From contig JAEUQK010000029.1 of the NCBI GenBank assembly GCA_016789265.1, forward strand, positions 248,001-312,000: 64,000 bases of DNA. The letters run 5' to 3'. Positions 33,086-35,128 of this stretch are shown in pieces. Every line of letters starts with the position of its first letter. Position 1 is the first letter of the stretch. The stretch is from Blastocatellia bacterium (GTDB taxonomy: Bacteria > Acidobacteriota > Blastocatellia > Pyrinomonadales > Pyrinomonadaceae). Both the position numbers and the translations under genes were made by a program. Below the pieces are notes generated by a model. It saw only the letters and a list, made by a program, of their open reading frames with translations, did no database searches and was not told the origin of the DNA.

Positions 33086-35128
33086 CTATTCAGCGACTGC
33101 CATTTCTTTCGGCTTTTCTTTTTTCTCGCGTTTGATCCCGCCGATCTGGATGAGGGATTCGCCCTTGATCTGGTTCTTTTCGAGGACCATCTGGTTGTAG
33201 AGCTTACGCATCATCTGCATTTCCTCGGCAGCGGTCTTGGGGCCTTCCATTTCCGGTTTGTTCGGACGAGTAAGGTCGACCGCATTGAGGTTGAGGTTGT
33301 GCGATTTGTCGCCTAGCTCAACTTCCTTGCCGCGGGCGAAGACCTCGTGGCGGCCGTGGTCTTTGTACCATTGGGCGACGGTGGCGTTCTGGTGCATGTG
33401 CTCGATGATGTTACGCCAGCCTATGCCGGTGTTGTAGGCACAGAACGAGATCTCGCCTTCCTGGGTGCCGTACGGGATGATGCACATTTCCGTGCGGCGG
33501 AAGTCATAGTTGAAGAGGTCCTGGAACCACATACCGGCGATGAAGAGGAAGTTCCACGGATCCTGACGTCGTTTCTCGATATCTTCGGCCGTGCGGTCGG
33601 GACCGACCTTTCCGTAATCCTTGCCCGAAAGTCCGAACGATTTGTCGAACTTCTTCAGAATGCCGCCAAGCGTCAGAGAATTCGGCGCACCGTACGGGTT
33701 GTAGTTCTTCAAGAGGGCGAGGCCCATCATGATATTCGAGAACCACTTGCCTCGGTTTGTGTCGGTGATGTGCTGCATGTCCGTTACCAATCCCTGGATG
33801 TTCAGGAATTGCGGGACCGGAGCCATCTCCTTCGTTTCTTTATTGACCATCACGGCCGTTCCGACGCCGCAGTTCGGGTGGCAGCCGCAGCTAACCTGTC
33901 CCCATTCTGCTTCCGGCCCGTGTACGACGTCAGCAAAATCGGCGAACGCTCCCATCAGCGAGAGCGGGAACCAGTCACGCGTCGGTTCCGTGATGCCGAC
34001 CTGTCCCTTCACATCGTGTGCAAGGTGAGCGAGCGTATAACGCTGCTGCAGGCGACGCTGTTCGGTAATGTGTTCGTCGCGGCCCGTGAACGACACCGGC
34101 TGGAATGCGATGAACGAGATCTTCTTCGGATTTTCCAAAGCGAAGCGGATTATCGAACCGACCTGATCGTTATTGATATGATTGACAAGCGTCGTGACGA
34201 GAATGATATCGACGCCGGCTTCGTGGAGGTTGTTGATCGCACGAAGCTTTACATCAAACAGGTTGCCGATCTGGCGGTGCGAGTTGGCATCGTTTCCGAT
34301 ACCGTCAAACTGAAGGTAAACGAAACGAAGACCGGCCTCGGCCGCTTCCTTACAGAATTCTTTCGATTTTGCGAATTCGATACCGTTGGTCGCCGCCTGA
34401 ACTGAGTTGTAACCGACCTTGCGTGCGTAACGTACCGCTTCGATAAAGTGTGGGCTCAAGGTCGGCTCGCCGCCCGAATACTGTACCGACATCTGTCGAC
34501 GCGGCTTGATCGAGATCGCGTTGTCGAGGATCTCTTTGACGTCTTCCATCGACAGCTCGTGAACGAAACCGACCTGGTTCGCGTCCATGAAGCACGGGTC
34601 GCACATCATGTTGCAGCGGTTCGTAAGATCGACGGTCAATACCGCGCCGCGGCCGTATTTGATTGTGCTGCTTCCGTGATTGTGAAGCTTTTCGTCGTTG
34701 TGTGCCTGCTGGTCGCGGCCGGGGAAGAGCGATTCGATATGCTGAAGGAATTTGGAGTCCATCGCCATCAAGTCTTCAAAGTGCCCGTGCTGCGGACAAT
34801 CTTTGATCATCCATACCTGGCCGTCACGCTCGATGATCTGCGCCTTGATCTCGCCGACCTTTTCATTGATAAGCGTCGAAACATCGCGATCGCCATTGAT
34901 GATCGCTTCGCGCGCCTCAATAACGCAGTTCGGGCAAAGCGAATCGGTCTGCCGCGGGAAGCCAAGCGTCGGCTTCGACTTCTGCCACGATTTCAGGATC
35001 GGCTTGTCTGACCATTTCGGAATGAACGATTCATTCGGCTTGAACTGGTTGATCGAACGTATCGCGTTGAACGCTCCGCTCGCAATGTAGGTTAGTCCCT
35101 TTTCAAAGTGCTTGATCGGTCTCGTCAT
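33086..35128 (-). CDS. Tes-like radical SAM enzyme (COG1964), candidate membrane-spanning lipid synthase
   Basis: 680 residues. The N-terminus carries a rubredoxin-like pattern (LCPNC ... DCPQHGHFEDL), then the radical SAM motif CNMMCDPC (Cx3Cx2C) with the GGEPTL SAM-binding segment. Further cysteines (SCGCHPNCGVG and CIIPYGTQEGEISFC) fit auxiliary Fe-S clusters. This layout is that of COG1964, which contains archaeal tetraether synthase Tes; Tes joins two lipid tails by C-C bonds. Acidobacteria make membrane-spanning iso-diabolic acid lipids, so a similar reaction is plausible but unproven. The lysine-rich tail is family-atypical. Expression appears sigma-54 dependent. Confidence 0.8.
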   Translation of the reverse strand: MTRPIKHFEKGLTYIASGAFNAIRSINQFKPNESFIPKWSDKPILKSWQKSKPTLGFPRQTDSLCPNCVIEAREAIINGDRDVSTLINEKVGEIKAQIIERDGQVWMIKDCPQHGHFEDLMAMDSKFLQHIESLFPGRDQQAHNDEKLHNHGSSTIKYGRGAVLTVDLTNRCNMMCDPCFMDANQVGFVHELSMEDVKEILDNAISIKPRRQMSVQYSGGEPTLSPHFIEAVRYARKVGYNSVQAATNGIEFAKSKEFCKEAAEAGLRFVYLQFDGIGNDANSHRQIGNLFDVKLRAINNLHEAGVDIILVTTLVNHINNDQVGSIIRFALENPKKISFIAFQPVSFTGRDEHITEQRRLQQRYTLAHLAHDVKGQVGITEPTRDWFPLSLMGAFADFADVVHGPEAEWGQVSCGCHPNCGVGTAVMVNKETKEMAPVPQFLNIQGLVTDMQHITDTNRGKWFSNIMMGLALLKNYNPYGAPNSLTLGGILKKFDKSFGLSGKDYGKVGPDRTAEDIEKRRQDPWNFLFIAGMWFQDLFNYDFRRTEMCIIPYGTQEGEISFCAYNTGIGWRNIIEHMHQNATVAQWYKDHGRHEVFARGKEVELGDKSHNLNLNAVDLTRPNKPEMEGPKTAAEEMQMMRKLYNQMVLEKNQIKGESLIQIGGIKREKKEKPKEMAVAE

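Follow-up and report, generated by a model that had tools for sequence, protein, structure and literature searches.

Introduction

Mss is a proven bacterial membrane-spanning lipid synthase, known from Thermotoga and also from Bacillota. The best-described related chemistry is that of Tes (GDGT-MAS; MJ0619; PDB 7TOL and 7TOM; NCBIfam NF045702) from M. jannaschii, which abstracts hydrogen from a terminal tail carbon, captures this carbon on a sulfur of its C-terminal cluster and forms the C-C bond with a second radical, according to PMC9433317. The paper names Met439 as the labile Met of the C-terminal cluster, describes Met439 and Tyr459 as invariant in about 1000 archaeal Tes sequences and as dispensable for activity in vitro, and leaves the role of the N-terminal auxiliary cluster open.

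In bacteria, iso-C15 chains are coupled tail-to-tail to iso-diabolic acid (PMC13274423). This lipid has been documented in Chloracidobacterium (PMC12816986) and in K. versatilis and A. capsulatum (PMC13274423), its share is 12-49% in two genera of subdivision 1, Edaphobacter and Occallatibacter (PMC11354219, PMC12935467), and in Pyrinomonas, the type genus of the family studied here, membrane-spanning and ether lipids, iso-diabolic acid among them, make up more than 40% of the membrane lipids (PMC4644332). Solibacter usitatus is discordant: it has two Tes homologues and iso-diabolic acid below detection (Halamka et al., PMC10087280), and it makes branched GDGTs despite the lack of detectable iso-diabolic acid. 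A role of bacterial Tes homologues, acidobacterial ones included, in making bacterial membrane-spanning lipids was put forward by Zeng et al. (PMC8941075), and by Halamka et al. (PMC10087280) for the two Solibacter homologues. The activity of the bacterial homologues has been stated as unconfirmed (PMC11868695), and published accounts treat the acidobacterial coupling enzyme as unknown or as unconfirmed (PMC10087280, PMC11868695). The general idea is therefore already published. What we add is a split between canonical and long-form proteins, the loss of a metal site in the long form, its near-universal occurrence, genomes in which it is the sole candidate, and its linkage to canonical Tes in one family; these five points were not found in the text of the cited papers, and a mention in supplementary phylogenies is possible.

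The Tes-like gene and its surroundings

The window analyzed here is a stretch of 64,000 nucleotides from a Blastocatellia bacterium of the Pyrinomonadaceae, contained in an assembly of 3.88 Mb. On its reverse strand, positions 33086..35128 encode a radical SAM protein of 680 amino acids with an ATG start, which we call A-type, the acidobacterial long form; the assignment combines the open reading frame, the Tes profile, PDB matches and the fold. A hairpin followed by a T run, resembling an intrinsic terminator, lies directly 3' of the gene (33016..33045, reverse strand). Among named genomes in the collection, the closest come from Pyrinomonadaceae and other subdivision 4 Acidobacteria, with proteins 87-95% identical to the one described here, and dN/dS against near relatives is about 0.04-0.07, indicating strong purifying selection. 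The frame is a genuine gene, and a chance frame is excluded.

The gene seems to be transcribed on its own. It is adjoined by phosphoglucomutase and DivIC genes in the window and by SurE-PCMT-VTT genes in relatives. No lipid gene was found as a conserved neighbour in the window's family, where the flanking genes are housekeeping genes, and no conserved precursor-peptide or cofactor gene was found beside the A-type gene. Given the single-unit appearance and the housekeeping neighbours, we dropped operon context as functional evidence. In several relatives SurE-PCMT-VTT is directly adjacent to the Tes-like gene, unlike in the window, where a probable type III restriction-modification system (27394-32186) lies between them; its methylase is split into two open reading frames (27394-28146 and 28180-29391), which suggests a frameshift or an interruption. 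Elsewhere in the window, an AdoCbl-II (B12) riboswitch (54245-54319, forward strand) stands at the start of a TonB-dependent receptor frame and is adjoined by ABC-type uptake genes (51459-54168). A probable clostripain-like (C11) peptidase at L004:15750-17699 (reverse strand) carries about 12 tandem units of eight residues (KLAGQEGS) near its C terminus.

Family matches and predicted fold

The earlier note had called the protein Tes-like, and profile, structure and fold searches agree. Its Pfam matches were Radical_SAM (4.4e-20) and, at 3.3e-14, PF23545, the N-terminal zinc-ribbon of HMPTM/Tes. The top NCBIfam match was Tes, NF045702, with 323.7 bits (E 1.7e-96), a score under the equivalog cut-off of 450 bits, as holds for its subfamily in general; the match covers residues 60-580 and includes the C-terminal domain. 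The second match, the radical SAM (seleno)protein TrsS (NF045646), reached 211 bits, far off its cut-off of 490 bits, and the TrsS model also matched T. maritima and all other controls at E 1e-5, none over the cut-off, so we discarded it as a bridge to Mss. NirJ and AhbC appeared among the secondary matches and cover the radical SAM core only. Viral collections yielded no useful relatives. By sequence, the top solved structure was 7TOL, M. jannaschii GDGT-MAS/Tes (E 1.1e-61).

An AlphaFold2 model was built from 52 sequences, with a mean pLDDT of 69.7 that is low around the metal sites. When the model was compared with known structures, 7TOM gave Z 22.5 (3.7 Å over 439 residues), 7TOL was also among the best matches, and the next family, MoaA, gave Z 14.6. 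The predicted fold thus places Tes far ahead of any other match, and the overall fold appears to be common to both proteins. Judging from its sequence, the protein is a relative of Tes/GDGT-MAS and not Tes proper: Tes has about 500-550 residues, whereas the A-type has about 680, with N- and C-terminal extensions.

Metal sites and conserved residues

Our alignment comprised 30 A-type proteins, 12 of their B-type paralogues, 26 canonical Tes from Acidobacteria and the M. jannaschii enzyme, whose numbering (PMC9433317) is used for reference. The features proposed in the earlier note from the letters alone were recovered for the radical SAM motif, the rubredoxin-like pattern and the extra cysteines. 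The motif CNMMCDPC is a radical SAM CX3CX2C (C172/C176/C179; 34592..34615, reverse strand, as are all positions in this section); together with the equivalents of Gly145, Tyr195, Asp199, Gln268, Ser271 and Arg275 it is invariant in all 30 A-type proteins, and the SAM-contact residues Gln268, Ser271 and Arg275 are likewise invariant in the 12 B-type proteins, which also retain the radical SAM and rubredoxin cysteines. The rubredoxin-like site, C65-x2-C68 ... C111-x2-H114 (34787..34936), keeps its three cysteines in 30/30 and its histidine in 29/30; its loop from C68 to C111 spans 42 residues, compared with 20 in M. jannaschii Tes.

The extra cysteines are C414, C416, C420, C549 and C563. The first three form C414-G-C416-HPN-C420 (33869..33889), in which C420 corresponds to C338 in the C-terminal cluster region of the M. 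jannaschii enzyme. The C-terminal auxiliary cluster segment (33440..33532) holds Met533, C549, Tyr553 and C563, corresponding to Met439, C455, Tyr459 and C470. The equivalents of Cys338, Cys455, Cys470, Met439 and Tyr459 are invariant in the 30 A-type and 12 B-type proteins, and from this conservation C420, C549 and C563 are the presumed ligands of the C-terminal cluster. C414 and C416 are two additional invariant cysteines of the A-type, beyond the Tes set.

At the position of the Tes N-terminal auxiliary [4Fe-4S] cluster (C73, C77, C80 and a His), the A-type protein reads HNHGSS (residues 149-154; 34667..34684), and the CX3CX2C motif is absent. It occurs in 0/30 A-type and 0/12 B-type proteins versus 26/26 canonical ones. 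The COG1964/Tes layout claimed earlier was therefore borne out for the radical SAM, rubredoxin and C-terminal cluster sites and not for the N-terminal auxiliary cluster; since one of four metal sites is missing, the layout is incomplete relative to Tes. In short, the A-type shares with Tes the rubredoxin site, the radical SAM motif, the SAM contacts and the C-terminal Cys, Met and Tyr set, and differs by the lost auxiliary motif and the two extra cysteines.

The N-terminal extension includes a predicted, mildly amphipathic helix (residues 4-27; 35048..35119) with a mean z of 1.4 across the family. The prediction makes a peripheral membrane contact possible; we rejected the helix as a membrane anchor, as its amphipathicity by hydrophobic moment is weak and amounts to a hint. 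The lysine-rich tail of the C-terminal extension (33089..33301), which the earlier note had regarded as unusual, turned out to be ordinary: its last 40 residues contain 8 Lys, where the family averages 5.0 +/- 2.0; it is variable among relatives and predicted to be disordered, and we set it aside as a special feature.

Subfamilies and distribution

In the tree, the A-type forms one clade with full support and the B-type is the neighbouring clade. The two are parted from canonical Tes by a branch of 2.53 changes per site, and a function beyond so long a branch may have shifted. The tree does not group the A-type with known non-lipid enzymes, an outcome that would have spoken against the proposal: as far as sequence comparison can tell, the A-type is a separate clade whose nearest characterized relative is Tes. 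The canonical Tes of Acidobacteriota and other bacteria (PMC8941075) belongs to the same superfamily and has the same proposed lipid role; it carries all four metal sites, scores above 450 bits, is sporadic in the phylum and falls outside the long-form clade. The window's genome also has a B-type paralogue (G000:C19:184810-186624; L003:14646-16712), about 95 kb from the A-type gene, which is 54% identical to it, has the same motif set and equally lacks the N-terminal auxiliary cluster motif. Many sampled Pyrinomonadaceae genomes contain both types. An A-type protein with 76% identity also lies on a contig labelled Gemmatimonadetes (L137, OFB_bin.31), reflecting either horizontal transfer or mis-binning.

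A Tes-family match at E 1e-40 was present in 117 of 199 sampled Acidobacteriota; 27 genomes had a protein over the Tes cut-off, and most others had the long form. In a second sample of 396 genomes, 182 matched the query at E 1e-100; the window's class was represented there by 54 genomes, 53 of them with the A-type. It was also present in 83 of 88 good genomes of a family (f11) that is taken to be Acidobacteriaceae, because the genomes taken as A. capsulatum and T. saanensis belong there. Five genomes are those we take to be C. thermophilum, L. pratensis, K. versatilis, A. capsulatum and T. saanensis, one genome was assigned to Chloracidobacterium validum, and another (G086, G+C about 59.5%) fits Pyrinomonas methylaliphatogenes without being certain. 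All seven have an A-type protein with every checked residue. These observations support a near-universal occurrence of the A-type in acidobacterial lineages known for iso-diabolic acid, a correlation that covers the gene-positive side only.

In the complete genomes taken as A. capsulatum and T. saanensis, neither canonical Tes nor any second full-length Tes-family protein was found, the other matches covering the radical SAM core only. Of the 11 assessable f11 genomes with both genes, 8 have the A-type and canonical Tes at a distance of 0.7 to 11.2 kb; the binomial figure of 1.5e-16 ignores shared ancestry and reads only as far from chance. Because the genes between them vary (Sortilin/BNR, DUF4139 and others), this linkage is not one conserved operon.

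Other Tes-like radical SAM proteins in Chloracidobacterium, Luteitalea and Koribacter (L219-L224) retain the N-terminal auxiliary motif and differ at the C-terminal cluster or at the Met/Tyr positions, and L219, L221, L223 and L224 show the reverse of the A-type pattern. Because of these changes we set them aside as poorer coupling candidates. A radical SAM search of the window's own genome gave 22 matches including fragments, mostly housekeeping enzymes (MoaA, MiaB, RimO, MqnC, MqnE, HemW, LipA, RlmN, NrdG, QueE). Those without such an assignment include L161, L167 and L168. L161 is also present in the genomes taken as A. capsulatum, T. saanensis and Koribacter and in Chloracidobacterium, and was not found in Luteitalea; L168 was not found in Koribacter or T. 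saanensis. Since each is missing from some of these genomes, both are less consistent candidates than the A-type. L167 (G000:C6:2573-3064 region), a B12-binding radical SAM protein with DUF4070, resembles the GrsA type in architecture and may act in the methylation of lipid tails or in ring formation. A PF09989 search of the genome found no PlsA/Ger homologue, so ether bonds would need another route, a requirement that would not arise for ester-linked products like those reported for K. versatilis.

Proposed function

Based on these observations, we suggest that the A-type is the best genomic candidate for the enzyme behind the iso-diabolic acid lipids of Acidobacteria, and that it is probably a membrane-spanning lipid synthase of the Tes kind. 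The cluster at C172/C176/C179 would generate a 5'-deoxyadenosyl radical, which would abstract hydrogen at the terminal carbon of a phospholipid's iso-C15 acyl (or alkyl) tail; the presumed substrate thus differs from the phytanyl chains of Tes. A sulfur of the auxiliary [4Fe-4S] cluster at the C terminus (C420, C549, C563 and the labile Met533) would trap the tail radical, and attack by a second tail radical would give the tail-to-tail C-C bond of iso-diabolic acid. By analogy with Tes we infer the substrate, the product, every catalytic step and the dispensability of the N-terminal auxiliary cluster; the residues for the Tes steps are, by alignment, retained. We counted in favour of this role that Tes/GDGT-MAS is the closest characterized relative by sequence and fold, the invariant C-terminal cluster set, Met, Tyr and SAM contacts, the distribution with its documented iso-diabolic acid producers, the lone full-length Tes-family gene of A. 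capsulatum and the f11 linkage. Against it we counted the branch of 2.53, the lost metal site, the housekeeping neighbours, the Solibacter discordance and the other radical SAM proteins. The A-type would have its class of products in common with Mss (lipids of diabolic and iso-diabolic acid), and Mss has been described with a Tes-like catalytic architecture (PMC13274423); it is likened to the A-type by this description only, and no Tes-profile match at E 1e-40 was found in T. maritima.

An unlikely alternative is that the A-type couples or modifies lipid tails in a special pool (cardiolipin cross-linking, maturation of tetraesters to tetraethers, or head-group-specific species), while an Mss-like enzyme or canonical Tes is the main iso-diabolic acid synthase. 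The presence of A and B long forms in Pyrinomonadaceae, or of the A-type and canonical Tes in some f11 genomes, means that roles may be divided, and further radical SAM proteins such as the widely shared L161 are at hand. However, canonical Tes occurs in only 27 of 199 genomes and is missing from A. capsulatum and T. saanensis, and the gaps in L161 (Luteitalea) and L168 (Koribacter, T. saanensis) also argue against this reading.

Considerably less probable is an activation of the lipid tail at the omega end by some other reaction that forms no C-C bond, such as the addition of a hydroxyl, thiol or methyl group; the C-terminal cluster would then donate sulfur or trap a radical. Tes chemistry runs via a carbon-sulfur bond to the auxiliary cluster (PMC9433317), so a single altered step would yield a thiolated lipid, and the extra invariant C414 and C416 could alter the cluster. 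Nevertheless, the equivalents of Met439 and Tyr459, characteristic of Tes, are in every member, and the distribution tracks lineages in which iso-diabolic acid is known. That the A-type serves tetrapyrrole, peptide or cofactor maturation instead of lipids, with only its ancestry in common with Tes, is about as improbable: radical SAM families do differ widely in substrate, the neighbours are housekeeping genes and NirJ and AhbC are among the secondary matches, but these cover only the core where the Tes match extends through the C-terminal domain, no conserved precursor peptide or cofactor gene lies alongside, and both the paralogue and the f11-linked gene are Tes family members.

Returning to a lipid synthase of the Tes kind, we tentatively propose a fuller version, for which we would put the chances at slightly under even. 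The A-type may be a reduced Tes: needing no N-terminal auxiliary cluster, it may act on phospholipids with ester-bound iso-C15 chains in mostly aerobic bacteria and serve as the iso-diabolic acid synthase of Acidobacteria, while the B-type and, in subdivision 1, the linked canonical Tes may share later steps to branched GDGTs.

Implications

In soils and sediments, branched GDGTs and the iso-diabolic acid units from which they are built serve as climate proxies. The A-type, near-universal, recognizable by sequence and distinct from canonical Tes, could provide a marker gene for their producers. The A-type gene of A. capsulatum, which encodes the one full-length Tes-family protein of that genome, is a clean knockout target. 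If the A-type is active, C-C bond formation of the Tes type can dispense with the N-terminal auxiliary cluster.
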